Shown in pieces: positions 336 through 40,061 of a stretch of DNA of 40,556 nt. Within the stretch, counting starts at the first letter, position 1. Each line of letters begins with the position of its first letter. The notes beneath the pieces are model-generated. The model made no database searches. It worked only from the letters and a program-made list of their open reading frames with translations, and was not told where the DNA came from. The translations under genes and the position numbers were made by a program. This DNA is from a virus: positions 624 through 41,179 of the IMG/VR virus record IMGVR_UViG_3300005096_000081. The stretch is one strand, 5' to 3'.

Positions 336-716
336 TTATGCGTGTCTTCTTGATGGGTTGTTTTGCAGGTCTTCGTCCGGGAAGGCATCGATCTGTTTTT
401 CAGAAAGCTCGTGCGCTCTCATGTAACTTGTAATCTTATAAACCCACTGAACTGAAACATCGAACTCTTTGGCAAGTTGTTTGTGGTTGCTGCCATTAAA
501 CTTTGACCATAGTTCGCGATCACGGGCCGAGAGGGTTTCTTCGGCGCACTTTGGAATGTAGATCTGCTGGCCACGCCAGTCGTTCTGCATGACCTTTATC
601 ATTACACTGGCGGATTTCTCAGCGGTGTCTGAATCGAGGCCGATGTCTGACTGAAGCTTTTCCTGGCACTTATCTTTAAGATCGCTGAGAAGCTCTGGCG
701 CGCTTGTGAATGACAT
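336..716 (-). CDS. mor: Mor-family transcriptional activator
   Basis: The 126-residue product matches the Mor/C family of Mu-like phages. It has an N-terminal dimerisation region and a C-terminal helix-turn-helix (about residues 78-98, with the segment KQLAKEFDVSVQWVYKI). Mor proteins are made early and activate the middle or late promoter together with host RNA polymerase. Here the gene is the last of the leftward early operon, next to the left end, and its ATG touches the stop of gemA. Likely targets are the paired palindromes at 13186 and 23600 (inference). No clear terminator is visible between its stop and the phage end. Confidence 0.9.
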   Translation of the reverse strand: MSFTSAPELLSDLKDKCQEKLQSDIGLDSDTAEKSASVMIKVMQNDWRGQQIYIPKCAEETLSARDRELWSKFNGSNHKQLAKEFDVSVQWVYKITSYMRAHELSEKQIDAFPDEDLQNNPSRRHA

Positions 717-1174
717 TAGTATTTTACCTCTGTTCTGTCACACCATTTTTTTAGTTGTTCGATTACGATACCTGCAACACTGCCTGGCATGAACTGTGGT
801 GCTGTCCAGCCCAGTCGGCGCGCGTGGTGGCTGCGTGTGGTTTTTTGCAGCCACTTTCGTAGACCGGCTTCACTTTTGTCTTTAACAACGCCTGCGTCGG
901 AAAGGTTTGACCAGAGCGCATGGATCATGGCGATCTGGCTGGCGCTGGCGTTGCCAGGTTGTCGTTTAGTCTGTTTGCGCTTTGTGAAAACAACGCCGGA
1001 TTTTTCCATGTGTTTAATTACCTGGTGGCGGCCATGTTCGTCGAGATCGGCTGACGAGTGAACGCGGCCCTGTGTCCACAGCATGTCTTCGTAGGTCTGG
1101 CGGTCCATACCGAGCTGTTTTTTTCCGATGTGGATTTTTGCCAGTTCTTTGTTACGTCTATCTTCTGTGGTCAC
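716..1174 (-). CDS. gemA: GemA-like protein (DUF1018, Mu gp16)
   Basis: The 152-residue product has the family's features: an N-terminal 'RNKELAKIHIGKKQLGMD' segment, a basic middle (KRKQTKRQPG) and the C-terminal 'GLRKWLQKTTR' region. In Mu, GemA is an early protein reported to affect host gene expression and DNA supercoiling. The frame starts at GTG and overlaps the upstream gene by 17 bases. The direct pairing gemA-mor is conserved in Mu-like phages and supports both calls. Confidence 0.88.
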   Translation of the reverse strand: MTTEDRRNKELAKIHIGKKQLGMDRQTYEDMLWTQGRVHSSADLDEHGRHQVIKHMEKSGVVFTKRKQTKRQPGNASASQIAMIHALWSNLSDAGVVKDKSEAGLRKWLQKTTRSHHARRLGWTAPQFMPGSVAGIVIEQLKKWCDRTEVKY

Positions 1175-1643: not shown

Positions 1644-1662
1644 ATATAACACACTGTTATGT
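1644..1662 (-). other. Collapsed attC-like site (distal edge of the cassette array)
   Basis: On the minus strand an R''-like box (ACATAAC, rc 1656-1662) is followed after only five bases by an R'-like box (GTTATAT, rc 1644-1650). The stop codon of the 1657 gene lies inside the R'' box, exactly as for the five full attC sites. The intervening hairpin seen in the others is missing. The 19 bases form a short palindrome (ATAACA/TGTTAT), so chance cannot be excluded. Confidence 0.5.
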
Positions 1663-1983
1663 GTTTAAAAACACGTTGCAGTCATTTCTAAATTCATCAT
1701 CAACCTGTGAATCATCTTCAGGATGTGCTTCGCGATACCAGTCAAGTGCATTGAGAGCCTGTTCAAGCAATAATTTCAGTCCGTTATTGTTTACCATTGT
1801 TTTTGCTACCAGCGATTCAAGCTCGCCTTTCTTCTCTACCAGCTCAGCATTATGGTTGCACGAAGCATCAAAGCTATTTTCAAGTCCAGTAAAATGCTCA
1901 CGTAAAACCTTTATCATGTCGGCTTTAATAATAGGGTTTTCGGTTTTGCTAAGTACGTCCAGTGCCTTTTTTATCTTGTTCAT
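1657..1983 (-). CDS. Cassette-borne coiled-coil protein, unknown
   Basis: The 108-residue product starts at ATG 1983 (MNKIKKALDVLSK) with GGCGAG upstream. The frame stays open further upstream only because it reads through attC1. The protein is almost entirely helical and acidic, with heptad-like stretches (residues 35-85) and an acidic C-terminus (HPEDDSQVDDEF). It is the last cassette of the array: attC1 lies upstream and the collapsed site at 1644 contains its stop. No family is recognised. Confidence 0.65.
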   Translation of the reverse strand: MNKIKKALDVLSKTENPIIKADMIKVLREHFTGLENSFDASCNHNAELVEKKGELESLVAKTMVNNNGLKLLLEQALNALDWYREAHPEDDSQVDDEFRNDCNVFLNT

Positions 1984-2042
1984 TTGTTTTCTCGCCTGTA
2001 ATGGGTTCTGTCTTAAAAAATAAGGTATTAGCAAATATTCAC

Positions 2043-2108
2043 ACATAACAAAACGCTGCACCGGAGCTTCGCAAAAAGCGGCTCGCCCCGTGAGCTGCAT
2101 CGTTAGGC
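2043..2108 (-). other. attC1 integron recombination site
   Basis: On the minus strand it has R'' GCCTAAC (rc 2102-2108) and R' GTTATGT (rc 2043-2049). The L'' arm GCTCACGG pairs with L' CCGGTGCAGC leaving extrahelical bases, and there is a central hairpin (GAGC..CGC TTTTT GCG..GCTC). The stop TAA of the 2103 gene is inside R''. The arms are almost identical to attC2. Confidence 0.82.
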
Positions 2109-2642
2109 ATTGCTATCAACCCAGCCCGCAATATTTGTTTCAGCCCAATCTGGTACCGACCTGTCTCTTTCATAAAGAGATATATAACTTGGTGGTACGC
2201 CAATTTCTTCGGCCAGCGCACTTTGAGTTAAACCAAAGGCATCACGTAGCGACTTTAAATGATCGTGAGAATCAAACTTAGGATGCTTTGTTCTCATGTG
2301 TTGCAATAAATTCTGAAATGTCCGGCTACAACACGGGCACACGCCATTCTTTACGCGCTCTCTCATCTTTCCATAGCTTCTACCGAGCTGGTCGCGCTGC
2401 TGTTCTAATAATGCCGCCCGCCCGCTTTCTGCTTCTAGCATTCTTTGCTTCTGCTCAAGTTGTTTTTTTAGTTTTTGCGCTTCTGTTTTACCTGAGTAGT
2501 GCTGGCCGTGCCCGCGAGGACAGTAAAAGCTTTCATGGTCGTCAAGCCGTCTGCGCTGGTAATCTTTTGTCATGGCAAAAGGCATGCCGCAGTTACAGCA
2601 TTCTTCTGTTATAAATTCAATTTCATCTACATAATTGCTCAT
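2103..2642 (-). CDS. Cassette-borne zinc-finger / XRE helix-turn-helix protein
   Basis: The 179-residue product begins at ATG 2642 with a strong GGAGG seven bases upstream, just after the attC2 R' box. It has an N-terminal zinc-ribbon-like cluster (C15, C18, C41, H45), then a charged coiled coil (about 52-90). A C2H2-type finger follows (C102, C105, H115, H120), and the C-terminus is an XRE/Cro-type HTH (about 128-165, with GLTQSALAEEIGVPPSYIS). It is presumably a DNA-binding regulator. Its stop codon is in attC1. A cassette gene with both finger and HTH domains is unusual; its target is unknown. Confidence 0.78.
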   Translation of the reverse strand: MSNYVDEIEFITEECCNCGMPFAMTKDYQRRRLDDHESFYCPRGHGQHYSGKTEAQKLKKQLEQKQRMLEAESGRAALLEQQRDQLGRSYGKMRERVKNGVCPCCSRTFQNLLQHMRTKHPKFDSHDHLKSLRDAFGLTQSALAEEIGVPPSYISLYERDRSVPDWAETNIAGWVDSNA

Positions 2643-2659
2643 TTGTTACCTCCAAACAT

Positions 2660-2731
2660 GCCTAACAAAACGCTGCACCGGAATTTTGTTACGCTGCGCT
2701 TCACAAAATCCCGTGAGCTGCATCGTTATGC
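2660..2731 (-). other. attC2 integron recombination site
   Basis: On the minus strand it has R'' GCATAAC (rc 2725-2731) and R' GTTAGGC (rc 2660-2666), a good match to GTTRRRY. L''/L' arms pair as in attC1 with unpaired bases. The inner stem ATTTTGT/ACAAAAT encloses the reverse complement of TACGCTGCGCTTC, which is also present in attC3 and, apart from its first T, in the equivalent part of attC5. The stop codon of the ASCH gene lies in R''. Confidence 0.85.
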
Positions 2732-3001
2732 AGATAAAACCTGCCCTAATTTCAATATGTACACCGTTTCATTTTCGGGCGCACCCCATTCGACAATACC
2801 TAAACTTTTTGATATTCCTCTGAGTTCAACCATCATTACAGGCGCGTCTTTGCTGTACCCGTTTCTAAACTCAATAACATCATATTTCTTGCTCAGGCGC
2901 GTATGCCAATACTGTTTTAGTTCGCGGTATTCCTCTCGTTTTTCACCAGAGGCAATCATATCGAACCATTTTTTCTTTAAAGTTAAGTGTAAAATCTTCA
3001 T
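2726..3001 (-). CDS. Cassette-borne ASCH-domain protein
   Basis: The 91-residue product spans one ASCH domain. Its start MKILHLTLKKKWFDMI, the segment GEKREEYRELKQYW and the later 'EFRNGYSKDAP..VELRGI' are characteristic. ASCH proteins are PUA-like and bind or act on RNA; some are nucleases or amidohydrolases, so the specific activity here is open. The ATG overlaps the attC3 R' box (GTTATGA) and the TAA lies in the attC2 R'' box, the compact packing typical of integron cassettes. A longer frame runs to 3175 but only by reading through attC3. No separate ribosome binding site is seen. Confidence 0.8.
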   Translation of the reverse strand: MKILHLTLKKKWFDMIASGEKREEYRELKQYWHTRLSKKYDVIEFRNGYSKDAPVMMVELRGISKSLGIVEWGAPENETVYILKLGQVLSA

Positions 3002-3069
3002 AACAAGTCGCTCGTTCGGAACCTCATTACGCTGCGCTTCATTCGTTCCGCACAGCTCTTGCGTTATAA
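2998..3069 (-). other. attC3 integron recombination site
   Basis: On the minus strand it has R'' TTATAAC (rc 3063-3069) and R' GTTATGA (rc 2998-3004). Arms GCTGTGCGGAAC and GTTCCGAACGAGC pair with one extrahelical base. The centre carries the shared TACGCTGCGCTTC block (plus-strand orientation, 3028-3040). Confidence 0.8.
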
Positions 3070-3071
3070 AC

Positions 3072-3224
3072 CTAGTGCTTATGCTCTGGAAATTCTCCAT
3101 AAAATGAATCTTCGGGTGATTTTCCAGCGTCATAGTCTTCACGCCATGCGTCAACATCAGCAACACTTTCACCATGTTTATTTGCTAGGTCAATTAAAAT
3201 GTCATACCAGTTTTCAAAATCCAT
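3072..3224 (-). CDS. Cassette-borne 50-residue acidic protein, unknown
   Basis: This small ORF is bracketed by attC4 (upstream) and attC3 (downstream). It starts at ATG 3224, preceded by AGAGGA seven bases away, and stops at TAG 3072-3074, next to attC3. The product (starting MDFENWYDILIDLANK, ending GEFPEHKH) is acidic and probably helical. It matches no family I know. Its position and good ribosome binding site make it a credible single-gene cassette. Confidence 0.65.
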   Translation of the reverse strand: MDFENWYDILIDLANKHGESVADVDAWREDYDAGKSPEDSFYGEFPEHKH

Positions 3225-3260
3225 AATTCAATCCTCTAAAGTTAATGTTCTAATATCGGT

Positions 3261-3345
3261 TTATAACAAATCATCCAAGCCGACCCTTCGGGTCGCCGTG
3301 CCTGCTCATACAGTGTGCCTGGGCGGCTTAATTCAGGCGTTAGGC
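3261..3345 (-). other. attC4 integron recombination site
   Basis: On the minus strand it has R'' GCCTAAC (rc 3339-3345) and R' GTTATAA (rc 3261-3267). Arms AAGCCGCCC and GGGTCGGCTT pair with one extrahelical base. It is the longest of the set (85 bases), and its variable part differs from those of attC2, attC3 and attC5. The stop of the 3340 gene lies in R''. Confidence 0.8.
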
Positions 3346-3579
3346 TACCCTGTAGCCAAAGTGTTCTTGCGCACAATCTCTGCAATAATAAATTCCACAA
3401 TAAAGGCATCGATGCGCGTAAAGAACTTTTACCTTCTTATTGCACCCGCATTTCACCGTGACCTTATCGGCGGTTATTCCCCAGCCAACCTGTTCTTCAA
3501 TCATCGATAATTGCCAGCCCATAAATTTAAGTTTCTGCTGGCGCTGTTCGGGCGTAGCGGTACTTTCGTAAACGGGCAA
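3340..3579 (-). CDS. Cassette-borne small zinc-finger protein
   Basis: The proposed start is TTG 3579, the base after the attC5 R' box, giving 79 residues; an internal ATG at 3522 is the alternative. The frame is open to a GTG at 3633, but that part would be translated attC5. The C-terminal half carries a Cys/His cluster (CGCN, then HRCLYCGIYYCRDCAQEH), likely one or two zinc sites. Its role is unknown; nucleic-acid or protein binding is plausible. Its TAA is in the attC4 R'' box. Confidence 0.6.
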   Translation of the reverse strand: MPVYESTATPEQRQQKLKFMGWQLSMIEEQVGWGITADKVTVKCGCNKKVKVLYAHRCLYCGIYYCRDCAQEHFGYRVA

Positions 3580-3654
3580 GCCTAACAATCCGGTTAACGT
3601 TGACTCCTCACTACGCTGCGCTTCGTTCGTCACAAGTTACCTCCGGCGTTACCC
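3580..3654 (-). other. attC5 integron recombination site
   Basis: On the minus strand it has R'' GGGTAAC (rc 3648-3654) and R' GTTAGGC (rc 3580-3586). Arms CCGGAGGTAAC..TGAC and GTCAACGTTAACCGG pair imperfectly. The centre has ACGCTGCGCTTC (3613-3624), shared with attC2 and attC3. The stop codon of the 3649 gene is inside R''. Confidence 0.78.
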
Positions 3655-3909
3655 TTCAAACAGATCGCCCTGGTTTTTATCAACCAGGCGATTTTCTATT
3701 ATCGGTTTCATCTGGCACGCTCCGTTTTCATCTACCAGGCAATTCATGACTTCGCTCGCCAGGGTTTCTTCGCTATTGCTATCGAGCTGTTTGTAGTTGT
3801 AGGTCATCTGCACACGCAGAATCGGGCAGCAGGCATCATTGGCTACCGGGCATTTTGCGCACTGCTCATCTAATACCATACCTTCGCTGCCGTTAGAAAA
3901 ATAAGCCAT
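3649..3909 (-). CDS. Cys-rich small protein, first gene of the cassette array
   Basis: The 86-residue product has an N-terminal cysteine cluster (CAKCPVANDACCP) and a further Cys pair (residues about 57-65), suggesting metal binding, and an acidic C-terminus. It starts at ATG 3909, eight bases after the stop of the upstream gene, with AGG upstream. Its TAA sits in attC5, so it behaves as the first cassette. An R'-like box (GTTGACT, rc 3911-3917) between it and the upstream gene could mark insertion at a secondary integrase site. Alternatively it is a backbone gene with an attC acquired at its end. Function unknown. Confidence 0.65.
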   Translation of the reverse strand: MAYFSNGSEGMVLDEQCAKCPVANDACCPILRVQMTYNYKQLDSNSEETLASEVMNCLVDENGACQMKPIIENRLVDKNQGDLFEG

Positions 3910-3917
3910 GAGTCAAC

Positions 3918-4430
3918 CTATATCGCTCTGCCAACATAATATTCTGGCAGGCCGCGCACCTCTTCTGTTTTGCTTGAGGTGCAGCCTGGGCAGATATGGT
4001 TTCCCTTGCCGCTGTGTACAAAGTCATTTCGACAACGAAGGCATTTATGCGTGTCGCTTCCAGAGGGTGTTTTTCCGGTGAGCTTTGCCTGCCAGTTAAC
4101 GCTGTTTATATTAAAGGCCCTGATGTCGTGGCGATTACAAAAGCTGCGAACAGATTCTACTGACCGGTTGAGGTGCTGCGCAATTTCAGGTAGTTTTTTT
4201 CTGTCTTTCATCATATTGATCAAGGTTACCTTGTCGTCATCTGGCCACTTTTCGTGACCTTTTACCGGCGTGGCTTTTAGCTTTGATGCACGCTGCCGGA
4301 CGGTTGATTCTCTGCGCTTCAGTATGATGCCTATGGCGCTGTAATCTTTTCCGTCAGCAAGCATTTCACGCAGCTTGTCGTCTTCTGATTCGCACCAGTG
4401 GTGGCCGCTTCTGTCAACTATTGAGATCAT
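3918..4430 (-). CDS. SANT/Myb-like and zinc-finger DNA-binding protein
   Basis: The 170-residue product has two successive Trp-containing helical repeats that resemble SANT/Myb or HTH modules (about residues 10-52 and 60-100: 'WCESEDDKLREMLADGKDY', 'WPDDDKVTLINMMKD'). A C-terminal C4 zinc finger follows (HKCLRC..HICPGC, about 127-150). It is a likely DNA-binding early protein, with its start at ATG 4430. It is the last backbone gene before the cassette array. Regulatory targets are not evident. Confidence 0.72.
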   Translation of the reverse strand: MISIVDRSGHHWCESEDDKLREMLADGKDYSAIGIILKRRESTVRQRASKLKATPVKGHEKWPDDDKVTLINMMKDRKKLPEIAQHLNRSVESVRSFCNRHDIRAFNINSVNWQAKLTGKTPSGSDTHKCLRCRNDFVHSGKGNHICPGCTSSKTEEVRGLPEYYVGRAI

Positions 4431-6696: not shown

Positions 6697-8007
6697 TTAC
6701 AACTCCCTTATTATTTCAGCGGTGACTCTTGCCTCGCCCATATCTGCGGCCAGGTTCATCGCTTTGGTTACGGTGATGTTGACGATCAGCGGATACAGCA
6801 TGCTTTGTGATGCTGCGGTACCACGCTGGCGAACGGTGCAGCGTTCACGGATGGCATCGAACGCGTCATCTTCAAATACCTGGTCAAGTGTTTTGTCTGC
6901 ACGATCAAACTTGAGTTTCAGGTACTGTTCGAGGTTGCCGTTGAGTGGGTGCAGCTCAACCGTTTCGCAGCGGTTGATCACTTCGCGGGCATCGTAGTTT
7001 TGGCGGACATCGAGCATGCCTTTTAACTCGGGCTGGCCGATTAGAATAATTGCCAGCAGCTTGTTGAAACCGTCTTCAAGCTCCCAGAATCGTTTTAAGT
7101 ATTTGAGGGTTTTAATAGTAAGGTCGTGCGCCTCTTCAATGATTAAAACGTGTTTGCTGCCGCCGCGTGATCGGCTGGTTAAAATGCGCTCGATCTGCCT
7201 GGCTTTAGCTTCCAGTGACTGCTTTGGCGTCTCGCTGCTAACATCGCGAATGATGGCTTCACAAATTGAGCCGGCAGTCAGCTTGCCTTTGTCGATAATG
7301 CGCGGCTGAATAATTGACACCGGCAGGTTTTCACGGTTGACGCGATCGATGAGGTCACGGCGCAGCGTGGTTTTGCCCGAGCCGGATTCGCCGATGATGG
7401 CAACGAAGCCGCCGTGCTTGCCTGTTTGATACATGGCGGCGCGCACGTGCATTTGATCTTCGCTTAAATAAATATCGTCGGCAGACTGCACGTCGTCCAT
7501 AAATGGGTTGATGAAAATGTTGAAGTGTTTTTTGGCGGTGGTTGATAGCATTTCGTTCTCCGGTAAATTCAGGTCGAAAATTGTTCTTTTGTGGGTGTTT
7601 TTTTGCGGGCCGCGCTTTGCGCCCACGGGTATTTTGTTGCGACCATTGTCCTGCTCGTCGACATCCCAGATGGTGGCGATCAGTCCTTCGGTTACGTTGT
7701 GTTTTCGTAAGAAACTTTCGGTTTGCTCGACGATGGATTTTTTATCGGTGAGCTTTGGCCATTGGTTCCAGTTGAGAATTTGTGTGCCGGCAGAGCTGGA
7801 TAATGATCGGCCAGTGCCGCGTCCTCCCTTCTGGATGATTGCGTCTTGCCAGTCAGATTGTCGTAGCCCGTTATCTGCCAGCACATTTTTTAGTTTTAGT
7901 GGCATGTAAAGTTGTCCCCATTTATTTTTTTTGATGGCGGTGTGTTGCTTGTGGTCGCCAGCAGAGCTATCTGCTGGCGGGTATAGGTTGGCGGCGAGTT
8001 GTGGCAT
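6697..8007 (-). CDS. AAA ATPase, MuB/ExeA-type transposition partner
   Basis: The 436-residue product has an N-terminal DNA-binding-like region (about 35-125). An AAA domain follows, with Walker A GESGSGKT (206-213) and Walker B LIIEEAHD (288-295). This is the ExeA/TniB-like class used as the B protein in BcepMu-type phages. By analogy with MuB it binds target DNA with ATP and activates the transposase, giving target immunity. It starts at ATG 8007 with AGGAGA five bases upstream, nine bases after the transposase stop. It is longer than Mu gpB (about 312 residues) because of the N-terminal extension. Confidence 0.9.
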   Translation of the reverse strand: MPQLAANLYPPADSSAGDHKQHTAIKKNKWGQLYMPLKLKNVLADNGLRQSDWQDAIIQKGGRGTGRSLSSSAGTQILNWNQWPKLTDKKSIVEQTESFLRKHNVTEGLIATIWDVDEQDNGRNKIPVGAKRGPQKNTHKRTIFDLNLPENEMLSTTAKKHFNIFINPFMDDVQSADDIYLSEDQMHVRAAMYQTGKHGGFVAIIGESGSGKTTLRRDLIDRVNRENLPVSIIQPRIIDKGKLTAGSICEAIIRDVSSETPKQSLEAKARQIERILTSRSRGGSKHVLIIEEAHDLTIKTLKYLKRFWELEDGFNKLLAIILIGQPELKGMLDVRQNYDAREVINRCETVELHPLNGNLEQYLKLKFDRADKTLDQVFEDDAFDAIRERCTVRQRGTAASQSMLYPLIVNITVTKAMNLAADMGEARVTAEIIREL

Positions 8008-8016
8008 TGTTTTCTC

Positions 8017-9804
8017 CTACTTAACGACCTGTAACGCAGTCGCTGTGGTTGGTGCTCGGCCTGTACGTATCAACTCGCACAGGGTTTCAATTTCGTCGGG
8101 TGGCACGCCATCGGGATACGCTTCGCGCATGGCGCGGTTGTCGTCGGGTGAAAGTGCGCGGCCAAGCTGGCTGATAAGCAAGCGCGCTGCTTCGATGTAA
8201 CTGAGAGGCTTCACTTCGACGTGCATGCGGTTTGGCACATCAAGTTCGCTGCCTGGTCGCCGCATGTAAGACGGCATGTCGGTGTCAGCCAGGTGCGAGT
8301 GTGCGTCGATGGTGCCATTGAATGGCACGGCATTTTTGCGCTGCAGTTTTTTGATCTCTTCCTGCGTTTTGCCAGGGAAAGCTGCCTGGTCGGCTGCCTT
8401 GCCTGCGGTCTCGATGACGGTGTCGGGTTGTGATTTCATCTCGTCGCCGATGACAGCTGCGTCTAATGCGAAACCGCTGAACTCATCAAACGCCACTGGC
8501 TCGATAATGTGCTCGGTTTCATCGCCGTTGTAATCTTCAACATGAAGAACAATTAATGCGTTACCGTAAATTAATGCGCTGACTTTAACTTTTGCTTTTG
8601 GATAAACATTTGGTATGCCGGCAACACTGTAAAAATTACGTCCGTCAGACATTGGGTGCTTGAACGAAACCGAAAGATCAGGCCTTACCGTGCGTTCAAC
8701 GGGTTCGGCAGAAAACAGGTATCGGCAAACCATTTCATCGGGCAGCAACCGTAACTGATTAACGCCGTTGCGCTGCCACATTTCATAACGCGCACATGGC
8801 GTCATGCCTGGTCGGTTTAATTTGCAATTTAAATCATCAATGGTGTCGCTGTTGTAAGCGTTCATCCAGTGCTCGGCAGCAACATTTAATTCTTCAACAC
8901 AGGTAACAGGCTCGAACATCAGCAAAGATTCAAAATGTGTTTCGACTAAATCATTAGCTTTCTCGACCGAGCCTTTGGCGCGAGGGTTGCCCGCCTCGTG
9001 CTCAATCGTTTTTACATCCAATGATTTAAGCGCTGTTTTTATTGCGCTGGCCGTATTGGCGCTGCCTTTGTCCCAGCATAAAATCTCTGGCACACCGTGA
9101 AACGGTACATCTTCTTTTTTCTTCCAGCACCACAGCAGAAAGTCATACATGTTTAACTGGGTTTCACCGTGACTTCGGTAATAGCGCACCATCACAGTGT
9201 GGCTGTAGTGGTCTACCAGCACGTAGCGCCACACCTTAAACTGCTTAATTTTCTCGATGTTTTCTGGCTTATTTTTGTAAGCCTCATCGTCTCGAATGTA
9301 GCTTTGCCCTTTTTTTGGATCGTAATAAAGCAGGCATAAAGACGGGTCAACCATGTGAACATGATTTGGATAAAGCGAGCGCTGCGCCTGAAAAGGCCGC
9401 TGTTGTTTTTGTTGGGCAATGCCCATGCCACGCTGTTTTGATAAAACGTTAAGGCGGGAATTGCTAACAGTAAACGAGCGGTCGTTAGAAGAAAGCATGC
9501 TGCGCGCCACTGTTGTGTGCATTGTCACTTTGCCGTTTTTTCTAACGCACTCTTTTTTCGCTGCACACAAATCTGTAAGTGCGGCCATGTCCTGGCTGGT
9601 GGTTCCTTTGTCTTTGCGCGTGCTGCGGCCACTGCTCCAGCCGACTTTGTTTTTTAAGTCTCGATAAACCTTGTTTTTGCTAAAGCCTATTTGCTCCGCA
9701 AAGGAGGCAACTAACTTGCCACGCTGCGCACCAGGCTCGTCCATTTTTCTGGCTAACGCCTGCAACTCATTAATTACTGCAATGTTGACCGAGGATTTTG
9801 ACAT
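8017..9804 (-). CDS. DDE transposase (MuA-type, phage transposase A)
   Basis: The 595-residue product has an N-terminal HTH (about 25-55, 'SFAEQIGFSKNKVYRDL'). An RNase-H-like rve catalytic core follows, with candidate residues D153 (HMVDPS), D245 (CWDKGSAN) and E281 (GSVEKAND), and then a Mu-transposase-type C-terminal beta domain (about 360-460). The C-terminal 'PLSYIEAARLL' tail may contact the ATPase. It performs replicative transposition using the end repeats at 201-243 and 37893-37934. It starts at ATG 9804 with AGGAA upstream. Its length is close to the usual 600-690 residues of Mu transposases. Confidence 0.95.
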   Translation of the reverse strand: MSKSSVNIAVINELQALARKMDEPGAQRGKLVASFAEQIGFSKNKVYRDLKNKVGWSSGRSTRKDKGTTSQDMAALTDLCAAKKECVRKNGKVTMHTTVARSMLSSNDRSFTVSNSRLNVLSKQRGMGIAQQKQQRPFQAQRSLYPNHVHMVDPSLCLLYYDPKKGQSYIRDDEAYKNKPENIEKIKQFKVWRYVLVDHYSHTVMVRYYRSHGETQLNMYDFLLWCWKKKEDVPFHGVPEILCWDKGSANTASAIKTALKSLDVKTIEHEAGNPRAKGSVEKANDLVETHFESLLMFEPVTCVEELNVAAEHWMNAYNSDTIDDLNCKLNRPGMTPCARYEMWQRNGVNQLRLLPDEMVCRYLFSAEPVERTVRPDLSVSFKHPMSDGRNFYSVAGIPNVYPKAKVKVSALIYGNALIVLHVEDYNGDETEHIIEPVAFDEFSGFALDAAVIGDEMKSQPDTVIETAGKAADQAAFPGKTQEEIKKLQRKNAVPFNGTIDAHSHLADTDMPSYMRRPGSELDVPNRMHVEVKPLSYIEAARLLISQLGRALSPDDNRAMREAYPDGVPPDEIETLCELIRTGRAPTTATALQVVK

Positions 9805-12042: not shown

Positions 12043-12094
12043 GGGGTATACTTTCCTCTGTTTCGTTCTATTGTTATGCATTTATGTGTATTGT

Positions 12095-38297: not shown

Positions 38298-40061
38298 CTA
38301 TACGTGCTCTTCTCCACCCAACTCTTTGAGCAACCAACTTAATTGATTGCGAGACGTGGAAATTATCTCATCAAAAATTAATATGCTTGTATTGCTCTCA
38401 ATATTGTTAGGATCGGGCAGATCGTTTCCGCGTTTACCGCCAATGATTAATACCTCTATCGATGCATCAGTATATGCTATAAAGTCATTTCTATATGCTG
38501 TGGCTTGTTGATAGTCAGCATGCTTAAGTGAATGGCTAGGGCGTTTAAACTCAATTAGTAAGTAGTCACCGAAAAAATTACCACTGAGCATTAGGTCTGG
38601 TCGTTTTTTCGCCCTAGTACCTGTATATTTTTTTCCTAAATAGTCCTCAATCTGTCTACGTAGTGTTTTGTTGCTACTAAATAGAGAATATTGTGCGCCA
38701 AAAACCCATAGATTTTTCTCAAGTGCAGCATGGACTAGTGCTTCATCTGTGTCTGCGTTTAAGCATAATTTTTCTAATTGATCTAGAAATTCCAAGCGTC
38801 CCTTTGCTTGTTCACCTAATATGGCTAATTCAGCCAAACCGAATTCTGACAACACTCCTGCAAGCTTGGAAATATCGGCACGATCTGCTTCGTGGATATA
38901 GTCAAGGATTGCACGGTATTCAGTTCTTTCTAATGCGTCAAGCAAAACGCTCACTACTGGTTCGATTTTAGATTCGGGTTCGCCATAATATTTACTGAGC
39001 ACGGCTTTTATAGATCTGTCAGCATACGTTCTTTTATATTCTGGAAGGGTTGCAAGTCGCTCGTTGATTTTCTTTTGCAGCCTAGCTTGGGCTAGTGCAA
39101 TTTCTCTGCCATATTCTTCTTTTACTTTCTCACGGATAATGGGCTGAACATGTTCTTTTACTTTTTCATATATCTCACTACCTTCAACCAATGCTCCCCA
39201 GTCTGCCGTAACATGATCGCTTAAACCGTCAACCTCGATTTCACCATATATTTTATCTAATAGTTTTTCTGGGAAATCATCAGATTTGTCTAGCCCAAAG
39301 AAATCAGGTTTTCCAACGATTTTTCCATCTACACGAATTGAAATGCCAGCTTGTTTCAGCTTGCCTTTTTGATTTGATACGGTAAAACTTAATTTAACTT
39401 TCCCTGCTGTTGGCAGGTATTCTTCATGCGAAGTAAATACGCCTTGTATGTCATCAACGCCTAGCTGCTTTTTATTTACAATGACTTCAAAATTATCTTC
39501 ACGACCATATTCTTGTAACAATATCCGTCTGAATTTTTCAGGACTAGGAAATGCTAAGTTTTGACGTAATGAGGAGAGAGATATTCGAGTACCATGCAAT
39601 TGATCTTTACAGTCAGTAACCTCTAAATCAATTGGCAATTTCTCAATATCTTCTGTTGAATCTAGAGCAGCAGTGCTGATTGAAAATTGGCATTTCTTTC
39701 CTCTTGCCCATGTTTCCAGCTTCATAGTATTGGCTGACATTAACCCGGCAAATTTACCTATACCTTTTTTGCCTTTAACCTTCCTGTTCTCATTGGGTGT
39801 CAATTCCCCACGTCTTTTTCGTCGATCGCTAGCTATGAAAAGATATTCTCTAAGTATTTCTTCCTCAGTCATGCCAGAACCATTATCGTGAACGACAATA
39901 TCATCATCTGTCATTGCAGCAGGCAAGAAAACAGAGACAGATAATGCATCGGCATCCCATGCATTATCAACAAGTTCCTTTAAGGCTTTTTCAGATGAAC
40001 GATAGTTTTCAGAGAGAAGCTTTGCTAAACGAGTATCGACTTGGAATGCAATTCTTTTCAT
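38298..40061 (-). CDS. GHKL ATPase fused to a Shedu-like PD-(D/E)XK nuclease
   Basis: The 587-residue product has an N-terminal GHKL ATPase: N-box ELVDNAWDAD (29-38, N33), G1 DNGSGM (59-64) and G2 GKKGIGKFAG (97-106). A transducer-like region and coiled coil (about 300-340) follow. The C-terminal nuclease-like domain (about 435-545) carries LEKNLWVFG (E448), D489 (RPDLML), E504 and K506 (LIEFKRP) and Q518, the pattern of DUF4263/Shedu proteins. ATP-driven dimerisation may control cleavage. It lies in host DNA 364 bases outside the prophage and is a candidate anti-phage or anti-plasmid gene. Start at ATG 40061 with GGGAT upstream. Confidence 0.85.
   Translation of the reverse strand: MKRIAFQVDTRLAKLLSENYRSSEKALKELVDNAWDADALSVSVFLPAAMTDDDIVVHDNGSGMTEEEILREYLFIASDRRKRRGELTPNENRKVKGKKGIGKFAGLMSANTMKLETWARGKKCQFSISTAALDSTEDIEKLPIDLEVTDCKDQLHGTRISLSSLRQNLAFPSPEKFRRILLQEYGREDNFEVIVNKKQLGVDDIQGVFTSHEEYLPTAGKVKLSFTVSNQKGKLKQAGISIRVDGKIVGKPDFFGLDKSDDFPEKLLDKIYGEIEVDGLSDHVTADWGALVEGSEIYEKVKEHVQPIIREKVKEEYGREIALAQARLQKKINERLATLPEYKRTYADRSIKAVLSKYYGEPESKIEPVVSVLLDALERTEYRAILDYIHEADRADISKLAGVLSEFGLAELAILGEQAKGRLEFLDQLEKLCLNADTDEALVHAALEKNLWVFGAQYSLFSSNKTLRRQIEDYLGKKYTGTRAKKRPDLMLSGNFFGDYLLIEFKRPSHSLKHADYQQATAYRNDFIAYTDASIEVLIIGGKRGNDLPDPNNIESNTSILIFDEIISTSRNQLSWLLKELGGEEHV

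Follow-up and report, generated by a model that had tools for sequence, protein, structure and literature searches.

Integrons are known as bacterial devices that stockpile genes behind one promoter, and the presence of integron-like sites in a phage genome raises the question of whether the phage has merely captured cassettes from a bacterium or whether phages use this recombination system in a manner of their own. The locus considered here is an array of attC sites and small genes in a 40,556-nt stretch of DNA (hereafter, the window), which represents nearly all of a 41,179-base virus record in IMG/VR (IMGVR_UViG_3300005096_000081). Our analyses suggest that the window probably holds a phage integron of a reverse-polarity class, in which the cassette genes are antisense to the attC sites, and that this member of the class lacks an integrase.

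Five attC sites lie in a Mu-like early operon

An original prediction, made from the letters of the window alone, had placed five attC sites between small open reading frames (ORFs) of the same direction. A covariance model (CM) of the standard attC structure was run on the window with filters off; the model was built from 25 aligned attCs taken only from intI-linked arrays of Gammaproteobacteria, with training and control loci fetched via the TIGR02249 integrase (75 of 185 Gammaproteobacteria genomes). The model recovered exactly the five predicted sites, at full length and all on the plus strand, with E values from 1e-9 to 5e-3; the next-best match in the 40.6 kb had an E value of 0.36. An independent hand-made scorer, which takes the boxes, spacer lengths and extrahelical bases of the textbook aadA-type attC as its template, gave scores of 21.0 to 23.0 for four of the window sites and 19.0 for the fifth; across 400 kb of Markov sequence, no match reached 21. 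When a generalised version of this scorer was used at low threshold, roughly 3.5 sites per 40 kb were false, and the covariance model was used instead. Free-energy folding of single sites yielded DNA z-scores of -2.8 to +1.4, which are unremarkable for most sites, and an Rfam gathering scan of the window gave 0 matches, with no attC family found. Because the folding z-scores are weak, the evidence for attC identity is the site architecture and not the folding energy. R'' and R' boxes, L boxes with extrahelical bases, a hairpin and recognition by the covariance model were found for all five sites, which are confirmed, at the level of sequence, as genuine attC sites. Moreover, attC2 shares 70 of 70 aligned bases with an attC of viral contigs L076 and L077, where the neighbouring genes differ. 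Wrong assignment of the attC orientation was also considered and was rejected, as control arrays beside intI fall on the expected strand.

By its gene content, the record is a Mu-like transposable phage, with MuA and MuB transposition genes, GemA and Mor in one early operon, which runs on the minus strand from about position 12,081 down to 336; the late genes (terminase and head) are on the plus strand. The five attC sites occupy a slot between the gene at 3918 and the gene at 1408, where small minus-strand ORFs alternate with the sites. No TIGR02249 match, i.e., no integron integrase, was found in the 41,179-base record. With five attCs within 1.6 kb and no intI in the record, the array is therefore a cluster of attC sites lacking an integron integrase (CALIN; at least 2 attCs and no intI), in agreement with the predicted CALIN in a Mu-like early operon; the complete set of intI, attI and array is not present in the window. 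Where the array ends downstream (1644-1662), an R''-like ATATAAC is found near an R'-like GTTATGT, and the two may be the remnant of a sixth site.

Cassette genes are antisense to attC in the window and in most viral arrays

In a bacterial integron, the gene and its attC have the same direction, and the stop codon of the gene is near R''. The window genes do not show this canonical arrangement: all five attCs are on the plus strand and all cassette genes are on the minus strand, with starts at or beyond R''. The stop codons, which had been predicted to lie in R'', instead fall in or next to R', whose GTTA reads TAAC on the other strand. At the third site, the reverse complement of R'' (GTTATG) provides the ATG of an ASCH-like gene. 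Codon usage called three of the window cassettes antisense and one unclear, which fits a reverse-polarity phage array.

For a wider survey, IMG/VR was scanned with two attC patterns that are blind to genes, sites were defined as covariance-model sites, and the coding strand of each segment between attCs was called by codon usage. The resulting viral set, mostly fetched by pattern, includes the window, a related prophage (L012, see below), L076 and the published phage TJE1, the last of which was added on purpose. Bacterial integron loci contained 56 sense, 2 antisense and 24 unclear cassettes. By comparison, the viral set contained 164 antisense, 7 sense and 47 unclear cassettes, and 48 of 51 viral contigs were antisense. 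The polarity difference was significant by Fisher's test both per cassette (p = 7e-43) and per contig (p = 8e-12); the contig-level value is the safer figure since cassettes are not fully independent. Two contigs (L100 and L152) even contain arrays of opposite directions, both antisense to the local genes.

Homology and translation signals point in the same direction as codon usage. Antisense genes within arrays match several classes of DNA methyltransferase, a Lar-like restriction-alleviation protein, a PAPS reductase and a DHH phosphoesterase, among others; none of nine sense ORFs of comparable length inside the arrays had any match. A Shine-Dalgarno sequence followed by a start codon leaving the hairpin was found on the antisense strand of 50% (phage pattern set) and 47% (phage intI set) of attCs, compared to 1% on the sense strand of phage attCs and 6% and 10% for bacterial sites. 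The idea that the reversed set stems from non-viral contamination was rejected, as the contigs that were checked carry genes for capsid, tail, terminase, Gam, helicase and phage integrase. L132 (388-5179) and L173 (5942-11497) have arrays of 11 to 13 attCs in a single phage, with several attC loops that hold both the ribosome binding site (RBS) and the start codon of the gene that follows.

Some phages with reversed arrays encode an integron integrase

Among 40 contigs with reversed arrays, three (G442, G460 and G464) have an intI whose full-length product scores above the curated cut-off and has intact catalytic motifs. In each of them, intI and the reversed attC array are in one operon, and the contigs also carry major head and tail-fibre genes (G442; L212/L213), capsid, tape measure and DUF2303 genes (G460; L214/L215) or a phage-type serine integrase gene (G464; L217). 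Placed in one tree with IntIs of Gammaproteobacteria, the three proteins fall in at least two places. The attCs of these contigs point away from intI, as in bacteria, but within the phage operon the cassette genes are parallel to intI and read toward it. Transcription from the far end of the array toward intI would fix the opposite gene polarity, with the attC/intI geometry being canonical.

A viral scan with the three phage IntIs yielded 151 candidate loci, of which 80 were kept, and attCs recognized by the model were found nearby in 39 of 79 loci examined. Polarity beside viral intI was antisense in 22 contigs, sense in 4 and tied in 5, with some of these contigs also being part of the first viral set. 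Several of the other viral intI contigs have a phage integrase gene after intI, and one has a terminase gene nearby. On two contigs (L249 and L291), the arrays lie downstream of intI with attC on the intI strand and mostly sense genes, an arrangement that resembles inverse integrons.

Homology between shared cassettes ends mostly at R'

IntI recombines the bottom strand of attC at G|TT in R'. Where cassette bodies are common to two phages, homology ended 17 times at R', 2 times at R'' and 9 times inside attC; the 17:2 ratio of R' to R'' breakpoints is unlikely to be due to chance (binomial p = 0.0007). Contigs L125 and L139 have exactly one R'-to-R' unit in common, which is 394 bp long and 99.5% identical. 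The R' breakpoints coincide with the IntI cut point and therefore confirm the assignment of this box as R'. Transcription terminators and chance palindromes, as other candidates for the nature of these sites, are rejected by the covariance-model matches together with the R' breakpoints.

A related phage has other genes in this slot

A single phage, represented by two copies, was the only close relative found: viral contig L001 and prophage L012 of the Thiotrichaceae metagenome-assembled genome NORP24, with 87% (MuB), 68% (MuA) and 67% (GemA) identity to the window; no further MuB relatives beyond this known prophage were found in the order of its host. None of the window cassette genes are present in the relative. 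Its slot, between the same flanking genes, contains a different set of small ORFs along with two attCs of its own (32.9 and 30.3 bits), again in the antisense arrangement; one site of the relative has a mutated R' (GTCATG). The window genes are thus not conserved backbone genes, and the expectation of differing cassette content among related Mu-like prophages was borne out. The host genome of the relative, NORP24, carries two integron integrases, at least one of them with an attC array (L050), and this array has the ordinary sense polarity.

Three of the window cassette genes belong to the phage families phrog_33336, phrog_625 and phrog_519 (Table 1). The ASCH match of the second of these scored 0.0029 with Pfam, under the gathering score. 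For the cassette gene with an HTH domain, a single weak match to the HTH alone was found in Gammaproteobacteria and none in plasmids, hence no useful relative. Near the right end of the phage, a 587-aa ORF (38298-40061, minus strand) appears by eye to encode an Hsp90-type ATPase with a C-terminal part that is possibly nuclease-like, and could represent a defence or moron gene.

Table 1. attC sites, cassette genes and other early genes of the window
Feature	Position	Strand	Details
attC site 1	2043..2108	+	R'' ACATAAC, R' GTTAGGC; CM 30.8 bits, E=1.8e-5; scorer 22.0
attC site 2	2660..2731	+	CM 40.6 bits, E=6e-8
attC site 3	2998..3069	+	CM 34.3 bits, E=2.4e-6
attC site 4	3261..3345	+	classic L boxes CAAGCCGAC ... 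GCGGCTTAATTCAGGCGTTAG; CM 47.6 bits, E=1.1e-9
attC site 5 (weakest)	3580..3654	+	CM 21.2 bits, E=0.0046; scorer 19.0
Small gene	1657..2046	-	ORF; start ATG in R'' of attC1 or later ATG near 1983; no significant Pfam or PHROG match
Cassette gene, zinc-binding-like + HTH protein	2103..2642	-	Pfam HTH_3 5.5e-10; phrog_33336 3.3e-29; stop in attC1 R'
Cassette gene, ASCH-like	2726..3001	-	phrog_625 5e-24; start in attC3 R'', stop in attC2 R'
Cassette gene, 50 aa	3072..3224	-	phrog_519 2e-10; stop 3 nt past attC3 R'
Cassette gene, cysteine-rich	3340..3633	-	ORF; stop in attC4 R'; start GTG in attC5 or TTG near 3579; no Pfam or PHROG family match
Upstream-border gene	3649..3909	-	ORF; stop in attC5 R'; not found in relative; no family match (PHROG search)
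D5-like regulator, flanking early gene	3918..4430	-	phrog_323 7e-12; not in relative L001/L012
MuB-like transposition protein	6697..8007	-	phrog_296 1.5e-64
MuA-like transposase	8017..9804	-	phrog_310 7e-73
GemA, downstream flank of array	716..1174	-	Pfam GemA 4e-25
Mor middle-operon activator	336..716	-	Pfam Mor 8e-28

Proposed mechanism and alternative explanations

A cassette of the window type would consist of an attC and the gene that starts at this attC, with the gene antisense to the site. We infer that IntI could act on the window sites in trans, with the enzyme coming from the host or from another co-resident phage, and could recombine the folded bottom strand of attC at R', which would lead to cassette excision, insertion and exchange between phages. 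The early operon would read through the array from the early promoter of the phage, such that no cassette promoter (Pc) would be needed, with RBSs and start codons provided in or beside the attC hairpins. Since the orientation of attC is fixed relative to intI and the operon runs in the opposite direction, only antisense genes would be expressed, and the phage and bacterial cassette pools would stay apart. Given the abundance of DNA methyltransferases and other phage genes in the phage pool, the swapping of counter-restriction and other accessory functions is the most likely purpose and may represent the benefit to the phage. More broadly, it seems reasonably probable that phages keep an integron class of their own, with canonical intI/attC geometry, reversed cassettes and operon read-through toward intI; the closed pool of anti-restriction and phage genes in this class would be silent behind a host Pc, and host cassettes would be silent in phages.

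The prediction that a phage has captured integron cassettes is supported overall, except that ordinary cassettes had been assumed; the reversed gene-to-attC polarity indicates a phage-specific set. Capture of ordinary cassettes with canonical polarity from a host integron, through off-target insertion by IntI, would agree with genuine attCs and with the integrons in the relative's host, and the idea that IntI inserts off target at attG sites is established (PMC12901181). However, canonical cassettes are sense by 56:2, every window cassette with a strand call is antisense, and phage families account for three of the window cassette genes, which makes such an origin very improbable. It also appears quite unlikely that attCs entered phages long ago and now serve only the homologous recombination of mosaics or function as RNA hairpins. 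While the absence of intI from the window, the mutated R' in the relative and the 9 of 28 breakpoints inside attC would be in line with fossil sites, the excess of R' over R'' breakpoints and the exact R'-to-R' exchange argue for sites that are recombined as cassettes, and the extrahelical bases are kept, some phages retain an intact intI, and the sites of phage PH101 are active (PMC9892861).

Two further ideas concern the origin of the polarity itself. A TAA stop codon followed by C is GTTA on the other strand, i.e., a minimal IntI target, and cassettes could have entered the ends of genes in antisense, so that phage genes between such insertions became cassettes. This origin story would be compatible with the explanation proposed above, and the position of the window stop codons in R' as well as the phage families of the cassette genes fit it, but no intermediate was found and the idea is not needed in intI phages, where the geometry of attC relative to intI alone gives the polarity; we consider it somewhat unlikely. 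Selection could alternatively have favored the reversed polarity because it puts the recombinogenic bottom strand of attC on the coding (non-template) strand, which is single-stranded during transcription. The opposite-direction arrays of L100 and L152, each antisense to its local genes, are consistent with such selection, which nevertheless seems unlikely to be the explanation, as replication direction is not separable from transcription in these data.

Several observations weigh against a phage-specific integron class with reversed polarity. The bacterial control comprised Gammaproteobacteria only, most of the viral contigs are uncultured, with phage hallmarks checked in about a dozen, and the Mu-like relatives represent one lineage only. 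Site 5 of the window is weak and would be unconvincing if taken alone. A plain longest-ORF measure gave no clear strand on viral contigs with high GC content; this measure is misleading on GC-rich contigs because of shadow ORFs, and the codon usage, homology and RBS tests were substituted for it. The 9 of 28 breakpoints inside attC suggest that homologous recombination acts too. Four intI-bearing viral loci have sense polarity, and so does viral contig L190, such that the polarity rule is strong but not universal. Tetrasphaera phage TJE1 (L202:244-1519; HQ225832) likewise has attCs of ordinary sense polarity, and phages therefore use both polarities. L190, a 70-kb contig, could possibly be a fragment of a chromosomal integron misfiled as viral.

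Comparison with known systems

If the reverse-polarity class is real, it would represent a second use of integron recombination chemistry, driven by phage operons and sometimes equipped with its own integrase, and phages would gain a dedicated single-step route for swapping methyltransferases and anti-restriction genes. Such a class would account for some of the mosaic structure seen in the early regions of phages, and the annotation of many small phage genes of unknown function could benefit. It predicts antisense cassettes, breakpoints at R' and co-transcription with intI, and raises the question of whether polarity separates the phage from the bacterial cassette pools.

The original prediction had further held that a CALIN of small genes in a Mu-like early operon is not well described. 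For phages in general, clusters of attCs, mostly without intI, and a small number of integrons have already been published (PMC9892861); a Mu-like early operon is not described in that study. The phage integrons and CALINs reported there by Qi et al. 2023 (TJE1, PH101, Vibrio phages and P1) likewise comprise attC clusters and methyltransferase cassettes, and sites were active with IntI1: both tested attCs of PH101 recombined with attI1, and 5 of 6 sites tested in the study were active (PMC9892861). In the text searched, the arrays are called typical, the polarity of genes relative to attC is not mentioned, and no common reversed class with phage-encoded intI is described (PMC9892861). In Pseudoalteromonas phage PH101 (L204:25919-27987; KR534323 75919-77987), the CM sites are on the plus strand and the annotated coding sequences are on the minus strand; the attCs of P12002L were not found by the covariance model. 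A search of open-access literature found no description of phage cassettes with reversed polarity, with subscription papers and preprints being outside of the search.

Phage morons and accessory loci of early regions likewise consist of small genes that vary at one set position of an operon, but units of the window type are bounded by attC sites and exchanged at R'. Spirochaetota "reverse" integrons (mentioned in PMC9668308) show unusual directions of their parts too, but there it is the integrase gene that is reversed, whereas the phage arrays have a canonical intI/attC geometry and reversed cassette genes.

With bacterial integrons and CALINs, including class 1 integrons, the Vibrio superintegron and sedentary chromosomal integrons, the phage arrays have in common the attC architecture, the R' breakpoints, the TIGR02249 family of IntI, an array that points away from intI and mostly one small gene per cassette. 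They differ from them in that the phage genes read toward intI and in antisense to attC, with the start codon and RBS in or beside attC, in that the phage arrays would need no Pc, and in their phage-type cargo, which includes many DNA methyltransferases.

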